DNA from: Pantoea ananatis LMG 2665
GTDB taxonomy: Bacteria > Pseudomonadota > Gammaproteobacteria > Enterobacterales > Enterobacteriaceae
Direction: 5' to 3'
Length of the DNA: 64,000 bases
Assembly: GCF_000710035.2 (NCBI RefSeq)
Contig: NZ_JMJJ01000017.1
Location: 124,001-188,000 of the forward strand
Of this stretch, positions 37,682 through 58,636 are shown piece after piece (the first letter of the stretch is position 1; every line of letters begins with the position of its first letter). The notes beneath the pieces were generated by a model that did not search any database, had not been told where the DNA came from, and saw only the letters and a program-made list of their open reading frames with translations. The position numbers and the translations under genes were made by a program.

Positions 37682-40018
37682 TTAAAGGATTTTATCCAGC
37701 GTGATGGGTAAATCCCTGACGCGCTTACCGGTCGCGTGATAAACCGCATTGCTGATAGCCGCAGCCACGCCCACGATGCCCAGTTCACCGACCGTTTTTC
37801 CGCCCATGCTGGTGGCCTGATAATCAGGTTCGCCGACATCAATGGTGGTGATCTCGGGAATATCCGCATTCACTGGAATCAGATAATCGGCAAGATTGTT
37901 GTTAATCACCCGACCATTACGCGGATCGATAATGCCACCTTCGAGTAATGCCTGACCTACCCCCATGATCATGCCGCCCACCCACTGACTTCGGGCGAGT
38001 TTAGGATTATAAAGTCGGCCACTGTCGAAGGCCGCGACCATACGTTTCAACCGTATGGTGCCAAAGTCTTCGTCCACCCGCACCTCAACAAACTGTGCGC
38101 TCCAGCTGTGGGCCGAGACCGTATCCGGTCGGCTCATTTCATTCAGGCTACCGGTAACGCTGTCCCGTTCCTGCGCAGACATGTCCGGTGAAAACGTGCC
38201 GCCTTCAACGCTGAGCCCATTAAGGTTAGCCAGCTTAAGCAGCGCCCCCAAATCAATGGCCTGAGACGGTTTAGCCGTGAGATGGATGCCACCCTGGGCC
38301 AGAGTGAGTTGGTCATGCGAAATGCCGGCAAGAGGGGAACCTGAGGTCTGACTGGCCAACGCCAGTAAACGGGCGCGCAGCTTTTTCGCGGTAACGTCTA
38401 CGGCAGCGGTCAGATTCCCTGCCAGCTGGGAGCCGCCCGCAACGCCAGCCCGGGGCAGTTGCGTATCGCCTAATTCAACATCAATGCGCTGTGAATCAAC
38501 GCCCAGAATATCTGCGGCGGTTTGCGCCAGTATGGTGTAAGTACCGGTACCAATATCCGCTCCTGCGCACTGCACAACGAACTGACCTTGCGGAGAAAGC
38601 AGGATTTTAGCTTCCGCTGGCATGGTGTTGACCGGATAGGTCCCCGAGGCCATTCCCCAGCCAATCAGTTCGCGTCCTTCACGCATCGATCGGGGCGCCA
38701 TGACGCGTTTATCCCAACCAAACGCCTCAGCCCCTTTTTGGTAGGCCTCTTTAAGCCGACGCGAACTCCAGGGAAGATCTTTTTGGTAATCACGATCGGC
38801 CCAGTTAAGTAGCCGAAAAGCCAGGGGATCAAGATCCAGTGCGTAAGCCATCTCATCCATCGCCACTTCAAGACCGAACGCGCTGGGGTTTTCACCCGGT
38901 GCGCGCATCCAGCCAGGCGTCACCGTATTAATAGGTCTGACCTGATGTTGGGCAGAGAGGTTTTCGATGGCATACATGCGGCCAGTGACCTTGCTGCAGT
39001 TTTCGGCGAACACGTCAATAAGTGATGTCTCACTAAAACTGCGCAGGATAACGGACTGAATCTTTCCTTCCCGCGTCGCCCCCATTTCCAGCTGTTGTGA
39101 GGTTGCCGGACGTCCGCCCAAACCCGTGAAGGTTTGCGGTCGCGTCAGTGACACACGAACCGGACGATTGAGCGCGCGCGAGGCCACACAGGCCAGCGCA
39201 ACATGTGTGTAAGGCACGGGCTTAGAACCGAAGCCGCCCCCCACATAGGGCGAAATGATACGCACCTGTTTGGGTGAGATGCCCATCCATTCCGCAATTT
39301 CGACCTGGGCGCCCATCACCCACTGGCTGGGTTCCCAGACGGTCATATGATCGTTCTCCCACTGTGCAATACAGCCATGGGGTTCCATGGGCATATTGTA
39401 TTCACGCGGGGTCGTGTAACGCTGATTGATGCGGACTTCAGACTGGTTCATGGCGCTCTGCGCATCACCCATCTCAATATCCTGAGGTGGGAGCGGCTTG
39501 GGTTCCACCCCTTCATCTGTCGGTGATATCAGCGCAGGCGTGGTGTCATAGTCAATCTCTACCAGCGAAGCTGCGTAAGTTGCCTGTTCGAAGGTTTCGG
39601 CCACCACCAGGCCAATGTTCTGACCGTTGTGAATAATCACGTCATCCTGGATCGGCGTATAGGTTGTCTGCGCGGCGCCCCCGTCAGCGATTGCCGTCGG
39701 CTGATGAATTTTCAGTGAATTGAGATGCGTATAAACGGCAATAACACCCGCTGCGCTTTCTGCTTTAGTGGTATCCATGTTTCTGATGCGACCGCTGGCG
39801 ACGGTGGACTGGATGACCACGCCGTGCACAGCATTCTCGGGTGTATGTTCGATCGCGTAACGCGCTTTTCCTGTCACTTTAACCTCACCATCACCCCGGG
39901 TGCGCGGCGTTCCCAGTCCTGACAGGCTTGCAGGTTCGCGGCGATAGCGTTCGTTGTGATCGCCTGTGGAATCCACGGCGTTCCCACTGTGAAGCAGGTC
40001 GTTTTGGTCATGGGTCAT
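37682..40018 (-). CDS. paoC: PaoC, molybdenum-binding catalytic subunit of aldehyde oxidoreductase
   Basis: Oxidises aldehydes, probably aromatic ones, to carboxylic acids at a Mo centre. It has 778 residues (E. coli PaoC 732, from memory), with a slightly longer N-terminus. Xanthine-oxidase-family landmarks are visible: LGTPRTRGDGEVKVTGKARYA, PHGCIAQWENDHMTVWEPSQW, SPYVGGGFGSKPVPYTHVALA, TPGWMRAPGENPSAFGLE, ADIGTGTYTILAQ, GVAGGSQ, and the catalytic Glu in KTVGELGIVGVAAAI. The start overlaps paoB by four bases. Confidence 0.93.
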   Translation of the reverse strand: MTHDQNDLLHSGNAVDSTGDHNERYRREPASLSGLGTPRTRGDGEVKVTGKARYAIEHTPENAVHGVVIQSTVASGRIRNMDTTKAESAAGVIAVYTHLNSLKIHQPTAIADGGAAQTTYTPIQDDVIIHNGQNIGLVVAETFEQATYAASLVEIDYDTTPALISPTDEGVEPKPLPPQDIEMGDAQSAMNQSEVRINQRYTTPREYNMPMEPHGCIAQWENDHMTVWEPSQWVMGAQVEIAEWMGISPKQVRIISPYVGGGFGSKPVPYTHVALACVASRALNRPVRVSLTRPQTFTGLGGRPATSQQLEMGATREGKIQSVILRSFSETSLIDVFAENCSKVTGRMYAIENLSAQHQVRPINTVTPGWMRAPGENPSAFGLEVAMDEMAYALDLDPLAFRLLNWADRDYQKDLPWSSRRLKEAYQKGAEAFGWDKRVMAPRSMREGRELIGWGMASGTYPVNTMPAEAKILLSPQGQFVVQCAGADIGTGTYTILAQTAADILGVDSQRIDVELGDTQLPRAGVAGGSQLAGNLTAAVDVTAKKLRARLLALASQTSGSPLAGISHDQLTLAQGGIHLTAKPSQAIDLGALLKLANLNGLSVEGGTFSPDMSAQERDSVTGSLNEMSRPDTVSAHSWSAQFVEVRVDEDFGTIRLKRMVAAFDSGRLYNPKLARSQWVGGMIMGVGQALLEGGIIDPRNGRVINNNLADYLIPVNADIPEITTIDVGEPDYQATSMGGKTVGELGIVGVAAAISNAVYHATGKRVRDLPITLDKIL

Positions 40019-49133: not shown

Positions 49134-49507
49134 ATGATGCCTGTACGGAAAAACTATGCTTCGCTTGGGGAAGTCACTGCCCCCTATGTCCATGCCGTCA
49201 GCCACAATCAAACACTCTATGTCTCAGGCTTAACGGCGTTTGGCACGCCTGCACACCAGGGGGATATCGCGGGCAGGCTGAAGTGATTTTTGATCAGCTG
49301 GAAAGCATAGCAGCGGCTGAAAACACCTCTCTGCAGCAACTCATTAAGGTCACCCTCTTTGTAACCTCTTTTAAAGATATTGATGCACTCCGCAACATGC
49401 TGTTTAAACGTTATGGTGATTATTTACCTGCGAGCGCATTGGTACAGGTTAGTGCTCTGTTCTCACCTGACTTGCTGATTGAGATCGACGCAATCCTGGG
49501 TCTTTGA
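49134..49507 (+). pseudogene. Frameshifted RidA-family protein
   Basis: Two overlapping frames together make one RidA/YjgF-like protein. The first frame from ATG 49134 gives YASLGEVTAPYVHAVSHNQTLYVSGLTAFG... to about 49275, where it soon meets a stop (AGGCTGAAGTGA). The second frame continues GQAEVIFDQLESIAAAENTSLQQLIKVTLFVTSFKDIDALRNMLF and ends ALFSPDLLIEIDAIL. A single missing base near 49270-49276 explains the change. RidA proteins deaminate reactive enamines/imines; the second half retains the family's IEIDAI ending but lacks the usual Arg. It could also be a sequencing error. Confidence 0.82.
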
Positions 49508-50368
49508 ACATTTATAAACCTCATTTTCTGGGTTATGAAAAGGGCAGAAATTGAGGTAACGCAATGATGTTCGACACAGTACTTAATCCAGTGCAACTCA
49601 CTGGCAATGGGAGCAAAGTTTCATTTCGCGCAAAGCCGTTCAAACCACGCAGAGCGACCTGAACCTTCGCTGGCTGTTATCGACAGATATATCAGATGAC
49701 GACAGATGTTTTCAGGTCTGGCATCTATTCCGGCAAAAAAGACACAACAAATTCTGATCATACGGCATGATTAACATCTGATTATGATCGTCGTTTCCTT
49801 GTCTCATCCTTGACCCAACGCTTTATACTTCAGTTGCCGCACCGTCAGATGGCATTGAACGAACAGGTTTATGCGTAAGTGGCACAGTGCTGAAAGGCTA
49901 TAAATGCCCCCGACGTTAGTGATGCTGAGTAGTCTGGTGGAAGTTCTGGAATCGTTGAGTAACAAAGCCCGCTGCCCTACCCTTTACTTACCTGAAGCTC
50001 AGTGCTGGCTAATAGCCACTGACCATTATTGCCTTGAAACGCGCATGACACATGAATTGTCACTGAACCCTCATCTCTCCATCTCCTCCCATTACCGCTT
50101 TCACTCTGCAGTCACGCTGGCAAAGACATTTTCGTCTTGAGAGATACGTATGTTGTCGAATCGCCGCTTGTGTCTTGTCTGCGTGAACGCTTACGCCAGT
50201 CGCACTCCACGCCGGGCTGAGCAGTTTCAGTTAACGAGGAAGGCTGCGCGCTTTTCGGCTTGAATGCTGAACCAGTGGCTATCTGCTCATAAATAGAAAT
50301 CGTGTAAGACTCCCATTTACACAAGGCTGATATACGTGGCGCAAATTGCCATTAGGTGCATAAGGTAA
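49508..50368. other. Non-coding stretch before the partition/iteron modules
   Basis: About 860 bp. A short frame with a good ribosome site (GAGGTAACGC ATGATG at 49564) stops after 32 codons and is not recognised. No other structure is supported. Confidence 0.35.
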
Positions 50369-50388
50369 ATTTCAGCCTGAAATCGCCA
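50369..50388 (+). promoter_or_regulatory. Candidate parS site 1
   Basis: ATTTCAGCCTGAAATCGCCA: two inverted ATTTCAG heptamers around one base, followed by TCGCCA. P1 ParB recognises heptamer A-boxes (ATTTCA[AC]) and hexamer B-boxes (TCGCCA), and the right arm of P1 parS has the same A-A-B order, as I recall. An inverted pair of iterons follows 13 bp later. Confidence 0.75.
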
Positions 50389-50401
50389 ACATTTAGGTGT
50401 T

Positions 50402-50444
50402 ACTGATTACAGTGAACGTTTAAGTGGCATTCACTGTAATCAGT
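50402..50444. repeat. Inverted pair of RepA iterons beside parS site 1
   Basis: ACTGATTACAGTGAAC at 50402-50417 (minus orientation) and ATTCACTGTAATCAGT at 50429-50444 (plus) face each other. Both are exact matches to the iterons around repA, 7 kb away. Confidence 0.85.
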
Positions 50445-50916
50445 GAAAGAGGAAATAAAAACCAGCCAGAGGATGAATGATTTTTTTGAACGTCAAAAAC
50501 ACAGGCAAACCTTTATATTATGTTAAATAATCAGGCACGGTCGCAAATTTTCGCCCCTGAAATCGTTGACGTCCTGAGAAGACAGTGACGTATTTTTCCT
50601 TCGATTTGGCTAAAACACGTTAATACCGCCACGTGGATTTCCCTTCGTGGCGAGTCGTCATTTATCTGCTTTAAAGCGATTTTAAGCCTGTTAAAAACAG
50701 TTGTCCCCAACCCGCCATCATGTGAAGAATACTTTTAACCAGGGTGAGCAACGCATCTTAACCGTTCACTGTACACTGCAACCCAGATACCTATGTAAAG
50801 CCTGGATGATGCGATCAAAAAAACCTGTCTAAACGGCCACTTGCCAGCGAGGCTTGCCTGATTTCATAATGACTGCTTTCAACAATTTCATGCAGCAAAC
50901 CCATTGATAAGTATGA

Positions 50917-50936
50917 ATTTCAGCCTGAAATCGCCA
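50917..50936 (+). promoter_or_regulatory. Candidate parS site 2
   Basis: An identical 20-bp copy of site 1 (ATTTCAG-C-CTGAAAT plus CGCCA). It is again followed by an inverted iteron pair, with nearly the same spacing. Confidence 0.75.
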
Positions 50937-50954
50937 AACAGGTCATCTCCGATT

Positions 50955-50989
50955 GCTGATTACAGTGGTTGTGATTCGCTGTAATCAGT
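50955..50989. repeat. Degenerate inverted iteron pair beside parS site 2
   Basis: GCTGATTACAGTGG (minus orientation) and ATTCGCTGTAATCAGT (plus) are one- or two-mismatch iterons arranged as in the first module. Confidence 0.75.
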
Positions 50990-51117
50990 ATCGAAAGTCA
51001 TTCCCGTGATTGACGCGGGATGTGGCCTCAGCAGGATGAAATAAACAAAACTCAGCCAACATGAGCATGTTATGAGTGAAAACCAGAACAGTTAATCTCA
51101 AAAGGATCTCGTTGCCG

Positions 51118-51217
51118 ATTCACTGTAATCAGTTGTTCATCATGGATGGAAATGTGACAGTGCCACACACAGTCGATAATCAAGCCTATGACCTACGTTT
51201 ACAGATTACAGTGAACG
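51118..51217. repeat. Two further distal iterons
   Basis: ATTCACTGTAATCAGT at 51118-51133 (plus) and the reverse form AGATTACAGTGAAC near 51203-51217. They extend the distal iteron cluster to six copies. Confidence 0.8.
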
Positions 51218-51219
51218 TC

Positions 51220-51903
51220 GGGTTGGCCTGAATGCAGCTTATAGTATTTAGTAAAAACATCATGCCAACGCCATAAGCCGTTAGCTTTCGCCCGGGCATC
51301 ACTGTTCTGTAAGGAATAGCGTTTTTCTCCTCCTGCAGGCACTGATGCGAATTTGATAAAATGCTGTACAGCATCAGGCTTTTACTTTCATTAGCGCCTA
51401 ACAGAACGCTTTCGCTCTCCAGCCTTGTCTCTTACTGATTCGAATAATACCTGGGCTGAAACGGGTTTTGGATGATGACTGCACCGATTTCAGCTTGTCG
51501 CTGTGCATTCTGTCGTCGCGTCAGCGCTCGTTTTCACTAAATCGTTATGTTATCAACGTGAGGCCGATTGCCAGGCGTGAATCTGTTCCGCTTAAGCGAA
51601 AGGCCAGAGTCACGATGCAAACTGCGACATGTTTTTTAGCATCGGGGCATGAAACCAACTCCATGTGCTTAACTTACTTACTCCTGAAACGCCTATCAGT
51701 AAGGCGAAAGATTGGCGCATGTCTCTGTCATTAAGGCTTTCTCAACTTATCCACTTTTTCTGTGGATAACTAAGGGATATTTTCTGTATATCAATTTAAC
51801 CAGAGTTTGACCGGGACGTTCGTCTTCAAAAAAATAACAAAGCAAAACCCTGACGCATTGACTTCTCTCAGAAACCCAGGGATTACTTTTTATCGCTGAC
51901 TGA
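51220..51903. other. Non-coding stretch with a DnaA-box pair
   Basis: About 680 bp without a supported gene. Several short frames exist but none has a ribosome site and recognisable similarity. The DnaA-box pair at 51747-51769 is the clear feature. Confidence 0.35.
51747..51769. promoter_or_regulatory. Inverted pair of DnaA boxes
   Basis: TTATCCACT (51747-51755, eight of nine) and the reverse complement TGTGGATAA (51761-51769, perfect TTATCCACA) face each other with five bases between. Closely spaced DnaA boxes are typical of origins and DnaA-titration sites. Confidence 0.7.
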
Positions 51904-51923
51904 ATTTCAGGCTGAAATCGCCA
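51904..51923 (+). promoter_or_regulatory. Candidate parS site 3
   Basis: ATTTCAGGCTGAAATCGCCA, differing from sites 1 and 2 only in the central base. No iteron pair lies beside it. Confidence 0.72.
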
Positions 51924-52239
51924 TCATAAAAACAATATTTTTCATGAAGATAGGGTTGAAAAAAGCGTCTCTTTCGCCCTGACACCGATAATCCACACAC
52001 TTCTAAATCTCTTATTGCAATCACAGCAACACCGCTAATTGAGATGCCGTCGAAAAATTGCTGTATCCGTCTCTGTTTGTGTAAATATCGCGCAGACTGC
52101 ATCCAATAAAAATCATCGACGTGATTTGCCCCCACAGCATTGAGCACAATAGACCGTTAGCCATGTCGGTTGGGTTACCTTCTCTGTTAGCATTTTGCCA
52201 GCCCACTGCTAACCTCGCTGACGTCAGATAAATCACTCA

Positions 52240-53290
52240 GGAATGAGGCTGAAACGCTTATAGTCCTTCCGCCAGTCGTTAATGTATTTTTTGGGTGAAC
52301 ACTTTCGCTTAACCCGAGCTTAATCTGACACGCCTTAAGAAAACTACCATTTAAGCTTTCGATAACCCCATAGGTATTTGATCGCCCGGCTGAATAAGCC
52401 GAAGCTTAACGCCATGCGCGAAGGTCCACTGGTTCAGTGCCCGCCAGGTAAGCGCTGGTGCAGAGTCTGGTCTGGTCTGGTCTGGTCTGGTCTTAACGTT
52501 ACCGGATAGCCATGAAATAGCACAATACTGTCCAGAATACGTGTGACCTGCATACCAGATATACCTGAGGTAAGAGAAACTGACAGGTATTCATTGGTAA
52601 AATAATCAACGCAGATATAACACTTTATTCTGCGTCAGGATGCCTGTGCGTCCATGACGAAATACGGTGACCACGACAGACCAGGAGCAGCAAGACGGAG
52701 CAGAGGAAGGCGTTCTGTAATCCGTACTCTACGACCTCGCCTGCAATTAACACCCGAGCCGCTGAGATGGTAAAGGCATCACAAGTACTTGTGATTAACA
52801 TGCAGGCCTTCTCGTTGCCGTAGTTTCCCGCTATACGGCGCTAACCGAAATGCCGTCGCTCGGATGGCAGCGCAATAGTGCGCCCTAAAAAATGCGCATC
52901 AGCCACCGGAGGCTGCTTCTCATGGCAGCAAGTCGACAGGAACAAATCAGCATACGTGCACGCACGAGGTCGTGACAGACTCATCACTTCACACCTCACT
53001 GCAACCGCTTCCCGCTTGCGATCTGTCGTCAGTATTATCGGCTCAACCACCTGTAATGCATCTTCACTCAGGCATCACTTCTGCAAGTCACTTCCTGAGA
53101 CGGGCTCTCTCTTCTTCAGACGTTTTACTTCAGGGAGTGCCAAGCCATTAAATGTCTTACGCCAGGCGCAAAAGTTTGCGTCAGAAATAATATGCTTACG
53201 GGAGGAAATGCCAGCCTCGGCTATGCAAGCGATACTGATGATCTGTTCGTACGAAAACTGTCTTCATTGGGATGTCCTTGCGTTGCTATA
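52240..53290 (-). pseudogene. Shattered IS3-family insertion sequence (orfA and orfB)
   Basis: Pieces of both IS3 frames can be read in order on the minus strand. OrfA (about 53290-53075): FSYEQIISIACIAEAGIS, then ISDANFCAWRKTFNGL (family: FSEEQII.IL.EAEAG, ISDATFY.WRKKFGGM). OrfB (about 53060-52240): EAVAVRCEVMSLSRPRACTYA, LAAPGLSWSPYFVMDA, VDYFTNEYLSVSLTSGISG, VTRILDSIVLFHGYPVTLR, then LNQWTFAHGVKLRLIQPG and YINDWRKDYKR. The pattern is that of the IS407/IS51-like branch. Multiple stops, frameshifts and a short tandem expansion make it non-functional. Its ends were not identified. Confidence 0.88.
52466..52493. repeat. Tandem repeat, TCTGG x5, inside the IS3 remnant
   Basis: Five perfect TCTGG units plus TCT. 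They lie where a transposase would encode the RTDxGPEF catalytic segment, so slippage has destroyed that motif. Confidence 0.9.
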
Positions 53291-53487
53291 ACATCATGTT
53301 GTGGCCAGCAACGGGGAGCAGATCAGTCGAATCAAAAATCTTTTAGCACCGAGGCAGACAACCACATTAAAACCACAGGCGGCAGGCAGCAGGCGACAGG
53401 CGGGAAATATAGCGAATTTCATTTAGGGAAAGCAAATTAAAACATTTAAAAAACAGTATCTTATAGATTAATTTCAGGCTATTTACT

Positions 53488-53507
53488 TGGCGATTTCAGC
53501 CTGAAAT
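53488..53507 (-). promoter_or_regulatory. Candidate parS site 4, directly downstream of parB
   Basis: On the minus strand it reads ATTTCAGGCTGAAATCGCCA, same as site 3 but in opposite orientation. It is 90 bp beyond the parB stop, the position of parS in P1. An extra single heptamer (ATTTCAG) lies 16 bp away at 53471-53477. This is the most likely primary centromere. Confidence 0.8.
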
Positions 53508-53596
53508 CTGCTATAGCGATATCGAATATTACAGGGATAAAGGAAATATGAGGGAATAAAAAAACCAGACAATAGATTTGCCTGGTTTGATATGTT

Positions 53597-54568
53597 TCAT
53601 CGGGTCATATACTTCTTTAATGTCTCAGCAATGACCTTATCTAGTTCGTCCTGGAGTTCTTTGGACTGGCGGTTAAACTCATAGCTAAACATTCTTCCTC
53701 GCGTTTTTTTGCGCGCAAATCGATCCTTATCAGCAAAGGACCAGAGAGCCACCGCTGTGGTTTTATCTTTCTCAGGTTCTTTAACGAGCGTCTGGCTGCC
53801 CTGACGAATCAATCTCAGAATTGTGTTTTTTAACTCGTCCTCAGCCAAACCATCACGAGCACTGACAACATCGATTTCAGCCGAGATAGCGTTTATCAAT
53901 GCCTCGACGGTTTGCCCGGTCTCACTCAGTTTATCCGCAGCCTGGAGCAAGGCTTTATAATCAGGATAAGTCAGCTCTGACTGATTAGGAAAAAGAGAGA
54001 TCAAATCAGCGGGAACGCTGGCAGCTTGTAAAGCACGGGTGACCTTGGCTTGCGAAAGGCCCTGGTTTTCAGCAATCTCTTTTTGGGATAAGCCGCCGTC
54101 TTTGAGCGCCAGTAATCGCATCCCGACTTCACGCAAATTATGCTCACGAGCCGTCTGAATATCCTGCGCAAGCCTGCGTGCCTCATCCGGAGTGATGACC
54201 GCATCGGTCACAAGAATATCCAGACCGGTTTTACAATAAAGTGCTGCCGCGCGACGTCGTGAGCCGTCCAGTATCTCTATACGTTCGCCCTGCATCACAC
54301 CAATGGCAGGGAAAAACTGCTGAAGCTTAATCGTGCGGATAATATCCCGCAGTGAGTCAGGCGTAAGACCAGACTGATCGCGACCATTCGTTTCCATGGT
54401 CACAAAGGTTTTGCTTTCTATCTCATTCGCAGGAATGTGTTCAAAACGGAATACGGCACGTTTTCCTGTGGCAAGAACAAACGTCTGCGAAGGGTTATCA
54501 GAGAGTTTTTCTGTGTTTAACGGTGTCTGGCTGAAGGTTCTGCCGATCGTTATTCTTTTCGCACTCAT
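53597..54568 (-). CDS. parB: ParB, P1-type centromere-binding partition protein
   Basis: A 323-residue DNA-binding protein (P1 ParB 333) that loads on parS and recruits ParA. It aligns with P1 ParB along its length: RITIGRTFSQ at the N-terminus, NGRDQSGLTPDSLRDI, IEILDGSRRRAAAL, a helix-turn-helix (LSQKEIAENQGLSQAKVTRALQAASVP), and a dimer domain with FARKKTRGRMFSYEFNRQSKELQDELDKVI. P1-type ParB contacts A-boxes with the helix-turn-helix and B-boxes with the dimer domain, and both box types are found in the candidate parS sites. It starts seven bases after parA. Confidence 0.95.
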   Translation of the reverse strand: MSAKRITIGRTFSQTPLNTEKLSDNPSQTFVLATGKRAVFRFEHIPANEIESKTFVTMETNGRDQSGLTPDSLRDIIRTIKLQQFFPAIGVMQGERIEILDGSRRRAAALYCKTGLDILVTDAVITPDEARRLAQDIQTAREHNLREVGMRLLALKDGGLSQKEIAENQGLSQAKVTRALQAASVPADLISLFPNQSELTYPDYKALLQAADKLSETGQTVEALINAISAEIDVVSARDGLAEDELKNTILRLIRQGSQTLVKEPEKDKTTAVALWSFADKDRFARKKTRGRMFSYEFNRQSKELQDELDKVIAETLKKYMTR

Positions 54569-54575
54569 AAAAACC

Positions 54576-55775
54576 TCAGTTCAGGCGGATAAATTCAATG
54601 CGGTCAAAAACCGCTTTAGCGAAGTCTTCGGCGGCAGAACGAGCGTTTTTCAGCGCCTCACTGCTACCTACATAGGTTGACGGGTTAGCCGATATAACCG
54701 TGTCAAACGACTCACCGCAACGCTCAAAACCATCCAGACGGGGCAGGGTTGCGTCCAGCATGTCGCCGCCGAAAATTTCTTTAGCAAGGCTGTGGCAAAG
54801 TTTATGGTCTGCTTTGTTAGAGAGCTTTGACATAAACCCGATATTGCCCTGGAGACGGCATACGGCTCCCGACTCTTCAATAATGCCAATCAGCTCTGGT
54901 AAACGAGTCAGGTATTTGAGGGTAGAGTGGAAATCAACCTGTGCCGGTGGGACTGGAGTCATCAGGAGATCGGATGCGGCGATCGCATTCTTTAAAAATG
55001 CATCCAGATGTGGGCCACTGTCGATGAAGATGAAGTCGTAATCTTTTTTAAGCTTAGACACGACATTATCATATAACACCGAATGAATGTTTTGCCCTGG
55101 CAAATGAGTGGCACACAGCTGATCCCAACTTGATGCAATAAATGCGTCATCTATTGATGCAGGTAATACGTCCACACCAGGAATAATGGATGAAACGATA
55201 AATTCACTTACCAGCTCATCCCGTGTGACGTTTTGTAGCATCGCCTGAGCGGCAGTCGCCTCCACGAGCCCGACAGAACGCTCGTGATTCAAAAACATCG
55301 TGGCAGAAGACTGTGGGTCGAGATCAATCACAAGGATGCGCAGGTCTTCATATAAAAGGTGAGGGTGAGCCCGAAGAGCGTGAGCCAGAGAAACAGTAGA
55401 AACCGTCTTGGAAACGCCACCTTTAAGATTTCCCACAAATAAGGTAAAGGCTTCAGTGTGACGATCGCGATATTTCGGCACGCCGCGATGATGATAGATA
55501 TCAATAATGTTCTGAATGGACATGGCGTACTTCACCGAGCTACCGGCGGCGCGCTTATCGAACTGATAACCACTCTCTTCCATTTCGTTTACGGCATAAT
55601 CAACGCTGGCGCGGGTCAGTTTTGGCAGTTTAGCCAGAGCCGCCTTGGCATAAATTTGGTAGTAGCTGTTTTCCTGCAACTCAAGCTTTTGTGCCTGAAT
55701 TTGTTCAGTAAGGCTCAATAACATGCGTTCGGAACGCTGAGCAACTTTCATGACCTGACTATCATCGTTAGCCAT
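54576..55775 (-). CDS. parA: ParA, P1-type partition ATPase and autorepressor
   Basis: A 399-residue type Ia ParA (P1 ParA 398). The N-terminal 100 residues carry a winged helix (KLTRASVDYAVNEMEESGYQF) for operator binding. The deviant Walker A KGGVSKT is at 118-124, Walker A' VIDLDPQSSAT follows, and Walker B is FIFIDSGPHLD. ATP-bound ParA coats the nucleoid and moves ParB-parS complexes; ADP-bound ParA represses its own promoter. A canonical promoter overlapped by an inverted repeat lies upstream. Confidence 0.95.
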   Translation of the reverse strand: MANDDSQVMKVAQRSERMLLSLTEQIQAQKLELQENSYYQIYAKAALAKLPKLTRASVDYAVNEMEESGYQFDKRAAGSSVKYAMSIQNIIDIYHHRGVPKYRDRHTEAFTLFVGNLKGGVSKTVSTVSLAHALRAHPHLLYEDLRILVIDLDPQSSATMFLNHERSVGLVEATAAQAMLQNVTRDELVSEFIVSSIIPGVDVLPASIDDAFIASSWDQLCATHLPGQNIHSVLYDNVVSKLKKDYDFIFIDSGPHLDAFLKNAIAASDLLMTPVPPAQVDFHSTLKYLTRLPELIGIIEESGAVCRLQGNIGFMSKLSNKADHKLCHSLAKEIFGGDMLDATLPRLDGFERCGESFDTVISANPSTYVGSSEALKNARSAAEDFAKAVFDRIEFIRLN

Positions 55776-55901: not shown

Positions 55902-57288
55902 AATTCACTGTGATGAGCGGGACACATCTCGAGCTCGCGCACATGAAATACCGCCCATTCATCTTCACAGCCTTAACCTTGACGCTTGATCCAGCACACG
56001 ATAAGGCTGACAAATTCTATCTCCTGTAAAAGCTGGTAAGAAAAGGCATCAATAACAGTGTCGAACGTTCACTGTAATCAGTGAATGAATGCATTCGAAT
56101 TTTTGCAGACCTGATGGAGGTCAATTCAGTTCCAATACGTGTTAACCGTAAGCAGGAGGGCCAGGCCAATATGCTGATTTCACCGCATATCTGGATCACA
56201 GATTCATGCCGGTTGGCAGCGGTAAGATCGCTAAACTGAAAGATTCACTATAGTCAGCAAAAGATTCACTGTAATCAGTAACGAGGGATGGGTGCATCAT
56301 GAGTTCTGGCCGATGTGTGACCCTGCTGTGAAGCCGGTAGACAAAAGGGTACTGAGTTGAACGCACTGGCAACTGGCAACTGGCAACTGGCAACTATTTC
56401 ACAGGGCGCCGACAGAGGATTCACTATAATCAGCAAGTGCAGCGCTCAGTATATTCACTGTAATCAGTAAAAGTTATGGGTAACTTTAGGCATTCACTGT
56501 AGTCAGTAACCTTCCGCTTTCATTTTGATGGCCCCTTTACGAGGAGTCATCAGGCTGGCCTTTCCCACAGCCAGACTCTAACTTAAACGCAGAACGGCTA
56601 TGGGACTGAGTTTCAAACATTCACTGTAATCAGTAAATACACATCCAGCCAAACACCTCATACGGGGTTGAATGCTAAACAACTCAATCGACTTCCACCA
56701 GCCCCAGCATGGTCAGAGCATTCACTGTAATCAGTATACTTCGTAAGTCCTGACCCGCGGGTCAGTGACCAGAATCAGGCCACGTCTCATCATGGGCGGG
56801 CTTACGGGTGAGAGGGGATTCACTGTAGTCAGTAAAACATTCACTGTAATCAGTAAAAGAAGGAAAGGAATTCGGTTGGCTGCAAACGGAACCTGGCCGC
56901 GTCAGATGGGATGTTCACTATAATCAGCAAACGTGATTTTCATTTAACCTGCCAGTATCTCAACATTCACTGTAATGAGCTAAGTGTTCACTGTAGTCAG
57001 CTGACTTCGTGACAAATGCTGAAGCTTCATCCCAAACGGCACACATCATTCACTGTAATCAGCACTGGCTTAACCCTGTCACTTTTTTTTAAGCGGAAAA
57101 GCACCCAATTGGAACAGGAAAGGCAGGGCAAATAGCCAGCAAAACAGAAATAAAAAAAGACACTATTAAACAATGACTTAAATCTAACATTCACTGTATT
57201 CTGTAAATAACAAAGCCCAGTAAATTCACTATAAACAGTATGACGACGCGGAGGTCTGGTTTCGAGCCGACATTCACTGTAATCAGTA
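55902..57288 (+). repeat. Iteron array between parA and repA (plus orientation)
   Basis: About 18 copies of ATTCACTGTAATCAGT(A), most exact and some with one or two changes (CACTATAATCAGC, CACTGTAGTCAGT, CACTGTATTCTGT). They begin near 55902 (degenerate), 56066, 56243, 56264, 56419, 56452, 56491, 56619, 56719, 56818, 56839, 56913, 56964, 56985, 57048, 57189, 57223 and 57271. Spacing is irregular, from 20 to more than 100 bp. These are the presumed RepA binding sites that control initiation and copy number. Confidence 0.93.
56365..56395. repeat. Tandem repeat, ACTGGCA x4.4, within the iteron array
   Basis: Four perfect copies of ACTGGCA plus ACT, between two iterons. Likely variable in copy number. 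Confidence 0.9.
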
Positions 57289-57420
57289 AAAGCGGTTTAA
57301 ACGCACGTAGAGAGGTGATCTAAAAAAGGTTAGTAAGTGCAAGCTAACTTATAAATTATTGATAAAAATGCACTTAAAAAAATGGACGGCGAGAGTAGAG
57401 ATATGGACCAGCTCACTTTT

Positions 57421-57558
57421 ACTGATTACAGTGAACACGACTGATTACAGTGAATGGCCAGCCAACTGCCTGAAGAAATCAGACGAAAATGATAGGCATA
57501 CGTGTCACTTTTTGGCAAAAGTGACACTGCAACGCGAGGAGTACTGATTACAGTGAAC
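57421..57558 (-). repeat. Iterons just downstream of repA (minus orientation)
   Basis: Three copies of ACTGATTACAGTGAA[CT] at 57421, 57440 and 57543. The first two start 19 bp apart. The array changes orientation between 57288 and 57421. No coding sequence is supported in the rest of the parA-repA gap. Confidence 0.9.
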
Positions 57559-57565
57559 GTTGGGC

Positions 57566-58495
57566 TCAGTCTTCAAAATCGATGTCATCGAGCGTATCGA
57601 TTCCTTCCAGGTTACTGATACCATCGAGTTTCGGTGTTCTGCTGTGAATGATGAAAAATACGGAGCGGCCTCGTTTGACTTCAGAGTAATCAAGGTAGCC
57701 AATCTCTTTAAGCTGTTCCATCGCGCGCCGTACCACGTGATTCTGCGTGGTAATCTTTGAGCCAAGATTGAGCCGCATACGTAAGCGGGCAAGAGAAATG
57801 GGCGCAGGGTTGGTCGGCAGGCTCTCCAGGAACGTATAAAGCGCCTGAGCCGATTCTTTACGCTTAAGGCGGGAGATAGCCCTCAGCTGCAGTAAAACCT
57901 TATGGTCGAAATTATACAGCTCAAAGAGCTTGGGATCAGCCTGTATGCGAACAATGTCTTTTTCACGATCGTAATAAGCTGACTGTACCAGATGCGTATG
58001 ATAGGCCTTACCGTTACCTTCAAAAGAGAGAGTGTTCGTCGCAATACGGCGTAACGAAGCGTCGAGTCGCTTACGCAATGCGGCAGAGGAGTTGGCGGAG
58101 GGAATACCGCACATCTTCACGAAATCAATAAAAGGCAGGGTTACCGTATCACCCTGTGTAGGGTAACGGGAAAAAGACTGAATAATACCGGCCCAGGTCT
58201 TAAAGTCATTATCCATATCCAGTCTGGCACCGGTGATGGTAATCTTTTCATAACCTTCCGCTTTAACCAGAGAGAGGTTTTTAAGCTCTTTGGTGGCATC
58301 GGTTGAAGCCATAGCACCAGAAATGCCCCGCGCTGTGGATTTAAGCGTGGGAACAAAGAGTCCCAGACGCATTAAGGCCACGGGCTGAACGGTATTATTT
58401 TTGTTGGGATGAAGCTGAATAACTTCACCACTGTTTTTGGTCACAGACAGAAAAGGCTCTAGTAACGCTTTGTTTTCACTATCTTTATCTGCCAT
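57566..58495 (-). CDS. repA: RepA, RepFIB-family replication initiator
   Basis: A 309-residue initiator with two winged-helix domains. It aligns with RepFIB Rep[137 protein letters not shown] and [16 protein letters not shown]. It binds the surrounding iterons to open the origin; iterons upstream of its start suggest autorepression. The C-terminus is short and acidic. The combination of a RepFIB-type initiator with P1-type parAB is a hybrid core. Confidence 0.95.
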
Positions 58496-58535: not shown

Positions 58536-58636
58536 CTGATTACAGTGAACATTAGCACTGATTATAGTGAACATTCTACTGTGTATAGTGAATAAAGTAC
58601 TGATTACAGTGAATACTTTACTGATTACAGTGAATG
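58536..58636 (-). repeat. Iterons upstream of repA (minus orientation)
   Basis: CTGATTACAGTGAAC (58536), CTGATTATAGTGAAC (58559), a degenerate CTGTGTATAGTGAAT (58579), and ACTGATTACAGTGAAT at 58600 and 58621, spaced about 21 bp. They overlap the probable repA promoter region. One more degenerate copy in the other orientation lies near 58733. Confidence 0.92.

Follow-up and report, generated by a model that had tools for sequence, protein, structure and literature searches.

The window analysed here is a 64,000-nucleotide stretch of Pantoea ananatis LMG 2665 and forms part of a 304,788-bp contig, a P. ananatis LPP-1-type megaplasmid. The closest records were P. ananatis LPP-1-type plasmids, with 99.9% identity to NZ_CP022429.1 over positions 49500-53600. 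Genes follow the order repA, parA, parB, then a near-geneless stretch of 4 kb (49508-53596; longest open frame 148 codons) and a ridA-like gene. The near-geneless stretch holds two modules, each a candidate parS core followed by an inverted pair of predicted RepA iterons (Table 1).

RepA is 62-68% identical to other enterobacterial RepA/RepB proteins, and no relatives were found in the PDB by sequence. For ParB, the P1 ParB structures 2NTZ and 1ZX4 were the top PDB matches (E ~1e-58). The 2NTZ match spans residues 136-321, and both the P1-type HTH and the C-terminal dimer/B-box domain were recognised. A second contig of the same genome (G000:C17:34009-35095) encodes another ParB, 45% identical, which has a parS variant of its own, TGAAATCCCCC.

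Table 1. Genes and candidate binding sites of the rep-par region, in window coordinates.
Feature	Position	Strand	Details
parS core, module 1	50369..50388	+	ATTTCAGCCTGAAATCGCCA, exact; A2-A3-B2 type: ATTTCAG-CC-TGAAAT plus TCGCCA
First predicted RepA iteron, module 1	50403..50416	-	B-box side, facing parS; 14/14 core; matrix score 32.3; 100% conserved
Second predicted RepA iteron, module 1	50430..50443	+	Opposite orientation; 14/14; score 32.6, top outside rep region
parS core, module 2	50917..50936	+	Identical to module-1 core, exact; 95-100% conserved
First predicted RepA iteron, module 2	50956..50969	-	2 mismatches; score 19.1
Second predicted RepA iteron, module 2	50975..50988	+	1 mismatch; score 18.1
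Third iteron pair, left member	51119..51132	+	Convergent pair, without parS; 14/14
Third iteron pair, right member	51202..51215	-	1 mismatch; score 29.9
Inverted DnaA-box pair	51747..51769		TTATCCACT-N5-TGTGGATAA; perfect box TTATCCACA at 51761-51769(-)
parS2 core, without iteron	51904..51923	+	Exact; second parS after parB in nearly all relatives
parS1 core, without iteron	53488..53507	-	Exact; 90 bp downstream of parB, usual P1-type position
parB, P1 family	53597..54568	-	Pfam ParB PF08775, E=1.9e-48; P1 ParB structure 2NTZ, E=7e-59
parA, type Ia with N-terminal HTH	54576..55775	-	Pfam HTH_54 (ParA HTH) and AAA_31
Downstream (inc) iteron array	55904..57557		21 core matches
repA, RepFIB-type initiator	57566..58495	-	Pfam Rep3_N and Rep3_C; 59% identity to annotated RepFIB replication protein A
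Upstream (origin) iterons	58536..58634	-	Four copies

Candidate ParB, RepA and DnaA sites at the locus

All four parS cores in the window match the P1-type parS small (A heptamers ATTTCAN-TGAAAT, then the B box TCGCCA) exactly. One report on a related plasmid describes this A2-A3-B2 core, "parS small", as the element needed for ParB binding in P1 (PMC10999674). We considered whether the modules carry a full P1-type parS and rejected this, since the left arm (B1-A1) and IHF site are absent at all four window sites, with no upstream B box and no IHF consensus. Left-arm boxes can be seen in related plasmids, for instance at loci L053 and L061, and at parS1 an additional A box begins 31 bp from the parS1 start.

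Iterons were scored across the 305-kb contig with a 24-bp matrix trained on the 25 iterons flanking repA. The six outlying iterons, from the modules and the third pair, all fell within the top seven matches found beyond the rep region. A further site at 37869 scores 18.9, about equal to the weak module-2 iterons, and is probably a chance match. The two modules were found in the order and at the positions of the original prediction, with every box in place, and their iterons belong to the same sequence set as those flanking repA, both module-1 copies matching fully and the module-2 copies with one or two mismatches. The further expectation that these sites fit the neighbouring proteins was borne out by the P1 ParB structural matches and by RepA identities of 59-68%.

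Only the boxes are shared between the two modules, the spacers and flanks being 8-46% identical within a species. A recent duplication of one segment was thus rejected. At the modules we found no promoters, terminators or RNA families, with neither an excess of promoters nor an Rfam RNA.

The third iteron pair, the parS1 and parS2 cores, the DnaA-box pair and more distant parS-like cores go beyond the original prediction. P. allii and P. stewartii retain the third pair, and a degraded form of it survives in the P. agglomerans group. The DnaA-box pair is distributed far more widely than the iteron modules, being kept in the form TTATCCACA-N5-AGTGGATAA in about 40 Pantoea loci at 88-156 bp from parS2 (start to start). 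It sits inside a 46-bp block that does not differ between P. ananatis and P. stewartii, and it lies beside parS2, away from the origin. The region thus has candidate sites for ParB, RepA and DnaA.

Between parS2 and parS1, the minus strand at 52945-53060 matched the Rfam family of the IS1222 frameshift element (E=7e-10). This is probably an insertion-element relic and may account for the greater parS1-parS2 distance in P. ananatis. Outside the window, a parS-like core without an iteron lies about 37 kb from parS1 (G000:C1:214951), and such a core recurs at nearly the same distance in P. stewartii plasmids. Another, 104 kb away (G000:C1:73516), falls within a 561-codon glycosyltransferase-like open frame and may be a coding coincidence, yet similar cores occur in relatives.

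When two iteron pairs were placed at random across the contig, the arrangement was reproduced 0 times in 200,000, whilst placement confined to the intergenic region gave p ~0.03. The strong evidence for the modules as candidate composite sites is the cross-species comparison.

Conservation and distribution of the modules in Pantoea

Both modules, each with both iterons, were present in P. ananatis (two lineages), P. allii and P. stewartii. Plasmids of the latter two species could not be aligned with the window over most of the module stretch, yet retained the modules. Across the three species, orthologous parS cores were 95-100% and iterons 86-100% identical, whilst 30-bp flanks (7-37%) and spacers (8-54%) mostly fell at 10-40%, near the random level. 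The module-1 parS, for example, is 100% kept in the P. allii and P. stewartii orthologues between flanks only 27-37% identical. Conservation of the boxes while spacers and flanks drifted is therefore a phylogenetic footprint, pointing to selection on both kinds of predicted site. Module 2 has two weak iterons in P. ananatis, and the minus one, with two mismatches there, is exact in P. allii and P. stewartii.

Loci from a sample of the genus were oriented by parB and all sites mapped. We found three designs, with the composite occupying three gene neighbourhoods in three subclades, and it is therefore not tied to one gene. Design I, in P. ananatis, P. allii and P. stewartii, has two modules, each with an inverted iteron pair. 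In design II, found in the P. agglomerans group, there is one parS, in many cases fully palindromic and with two B boxes, and one iteron faces it at a distance of 21 or 30-32 bp. This site lies 2.8-8.4 kb past parB and as a rule follows a sugar-transporter gene. Design III, from another subclade, has a parS, a facing iteron at 63-68 bp and then two or three further iterons. It lies 7.7-11.4 kb beyond parB, flipped relative to parB, and is preceded by an alcohol-dehydrogenase gene in three of four loci. Decay was seen in the parS of one design-III locus and in an iteron of P. deleyi.

In 40 Pantoea loci, covered for up to 15 kb past parB, there were 41 exact outlying iterons, of which 24 lay within 100 bp of a parS, against an expectation by shifting of 2.1 and a maximum of 11 in 5000 shifts; the composites may share one ancestral site, so these counts are not independent. 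In every case in these loci the first iteron was on the B-box side and faced parS. A whole-genome search of 61 Pantoea genomes found the pattern on the B-box side at 5-35 bp in 17 and at 45-75 bp in four, whilst none of the 61 had it on the A-box side.

The side-by-side placement of candidate RepA and ParB sites proposed in the original prediction is thus conserved, and appears selected, across species. The prediction had also counted on conserved spacing in related plasmids. This did not hold, with gaps of 10-68 bp between designs, and counts in part as the refutation that the prediction itself had named, but the side and orientation proved constant. In design I alone, the distance from parS to the first iteron varies from 10 to 20 bp and that between iterons from 5 to 13 bp. 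Rigid spacing or helical phasing was therefore rejected, the parS-iteron gaps being 10, 14-16, 19-21, 30-32 and 63-68 bp. The constant features are adjacency, the B-box side of parS and the orientation of the first iteron towards parS. The pattern is one of selection that preserved the predicted sites and allowed the distances to drift. Evolution appears to have preserved a physical link between plasmid replication and segregation.

In a RepA-ParA-ParB tree every design fell within one clade (support 0.996), and a neighbouring clade, comprising 15 loci, lacked the composite. Other Erwiniaceae genera and viral contigs yielded no instance of it, and all 12 composite matches among the genomes of 84,980 species were from Pantoea. 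The composite is thus not universal but confined to one Pantoea plasmid clade. The composite probably arose once and was later relocated.

Two other arrangements were observed. At loci L117-L122, L134 and L136, isolated exact iterons, apparently intergenic and conserved within their clades, lie 1.4-13.7 kb beyond parB with no parS nearby. Since such iterons are conserved in other clades, outlying candidate RepA sites need not be tied to ParB. In a more distant Erwiniaceae genome (L061:6843-7075), a parS core with P1-like left-arm boxes lies 45 bp from inc iterons beside rep. Its RepA is related but has a different iteron, CCACTATAGTG, and this proximity, seen in one genome, could be an independent case.

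A proposed ParB-gated control site and its alternatives

The analysis establishes where the sites lie, how well they are conserved, their side and orientation, and to which families the two proteins belong; from this we infer binding, occlusion and an effect on copy number. The most economical reading is that each module would be a composite, ParB-gated RepA control site tuning iteron-based inhibition of replication. We put this forward tentatively, as a good possibility that stops a little short of probable. RepA on the outlying iterons would add to iteron-based inhibition, either through titration or through handcuffing to the origin iterons, which lie 7-8 kb off. ParB would load at the parS core, 10-20 bp from the iterons on its B-box side, and slide or spread into them, so that RepA would be displaced or blocked. 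Once its partition complex was fully assembled, a plasmid would thereby be freed from part of the inhibition, whilst one short of ParB would stay inhibited. The footprint, the clustering of iterons at parS, the fixed side and orientation and the gene-independent placement all argue for ParB gating. V. cholerae rctA supplies an experimental precedent (PMC3688505), and the inhibitory handcuffing ascribed to iterons downstream of rep in RepFIB (PMC11983097) is in line with it. Against it stand the parS cores at 51904 and 53488, which have no iterons, the isolated iterons conserved elsewhere with no parS, the weakness of the module-2 iterons in P. ananatis and the probable common descent of the counted composites. 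Because spacer lengths are free, occlusion or local competition is favoured over a fixed RepA-ParB contact.

The free spacing speaks for occlusion by spreading or sliding ParB, or else for a roadblock, in which iteron-bound RepA limits ParB spreading from the module parS towards parAB-rep and so shields those genes or gives the partition complex its shape. Sequence does not show which way the effect would run, with ParB displacing RepA or with RepA blocking ParB. On F, RepE at the incC/ori2 iterons makes ParB spreading asymmetric, and P1 initiator complexes block spreading (PMC6238139). In line with this, the iterons flank parS on one side only, and that side faces parB in P. ananatis-type and P. 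agglomerans-type plasmids. Two points weaken the case: parS1 and parS2, which lie between the modules and parAB, face parAB with no such barrier, and design III is flipped, its iterons lying on the side away from parB. We therefore regard a roadblock as unlikely, if still a serious alternative.

RepA might instead handcuff a module to the origin iterons, in cis or between sisters, drawing extra parS to the origin in a joint replication-partition complex. Downstream RepFIB iterons have been proposed to handcuff upstream ones in cis and in trans (PMC11983097), and the module-1 iterons score on a par with the origin iterons. Many inc iterons are however already nearer the origin, and such bridging gives no reason for the B-box side, which leaves it quite unlikely. 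The existence of both parS without iterons and iterons without parS would suit a shared control region with no crosstalk, where outlying iterons titrate RepA and extra parS strengthen partition independently. That 24 of the 41 exact outlying iterons lie near parS, with a fixed side and orientation in three neighbourhoods, makes this distinctly doubtful. That the sites act as transcriptional operators of an adjacent gene or a small RNA is very improbable: P. agglomerans-type sites do have pagP or a hydrolase gene a few hundred bases downstream, but neighbouring genes differ among designs and species, disfavouring a gene-specific operator, and the modules lack promoter excess and Rfam RNAs.

Candidate ParB, RepA and host DnaA sites are interleaved over 3 kb, and conceivably form a three-protein licensing region in which the partition complex sets the availability of RepA and DnaA, which we consider a long shot. 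If it were true, the low-copy megaplasmid would refire only once its sisters had been handed over for segregation.

Relation to known systems

One described megaplasmid of Pantoea, pPagL15_1, belongs to the same plasmid group and ParB family, and its parB-proximal parS was recognised with the "parS small" core. In the available part of that report the parB-adjacent parS alone is described, with no mention of extra parS cores, outlying iterons or composites (PMC10999674). A studied RepFIB replicon likewise has a RepFIB-type Rep, upstream iterons and a downstream array. Its iterons downstream of rep inhibit replication, by handcuffing of the upstream set in the authors' model, but unlike here it has no outlying iterons at a centromere (PMC11983097). 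The Deinococcus radiodurans cisII/cisMP elements also join origin and centromere-like functions in one element, using DnaA boxes with ParB-bound repeats and not plasmid Rep iterons beside a separate parS (PMC7671480).

The original prediction knew of no described counterpart to the modules. This was wrong, given the V. cholerae rctA locus (PMC3688505) and the roadblocks to ParB spreading known from initiator-iteron complexes on P1 and F (PMC6238139). On P1 and F, as proposed here, initiator at iterons and spreading ParB meet on the same plasmid DNA, and P1 has the same ParB family. Their iterons are however part of ori/inc, with parS apart. A dedicated parS-iteron composite is not described for P1 or F. 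An earlier account of composites like those in Pantoea may exist in subscription journals, the literature covered here being open-access.

At rctA, on V. cholerae chromosome II, parS2-B lies beside an RctB-binding 39-mer and ParB2 spreading counteracts this initiator site (PMC3688505). As proposed for the modules, rctA sets a ParB-binding centromere beside an iteron-type initiator site on the control side of the origin, and the Pantoea composites place parS and a candidate initiator site within about 100 bp (gaps of 10-68 bp). The modules are nevertheless not members of the rctA locus, their initiator being Rep_3/RepFIB-type and their sites RepA-type iterons. RctB and its 39-mer are unrelated in sequence and present as a single copy inside the origin region, whilst the Pantoea modules combine RepFIB-type iterons with P1-type parS cores, duplicated on a megaplasmid 7-8 kb from the origin. 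As they lie outside the origin, both halves can be removed without touching the origin, repA or parAB. The main worked case of a tie between replication and segregation in low-copy plasmids and secondary chromosomes is V. cholerae chromosome II. The modules offer a clean second case: they are short, duplicated and bear an evolutionary footprint, and the plasmid group that carries them is widespread in Pantoea.
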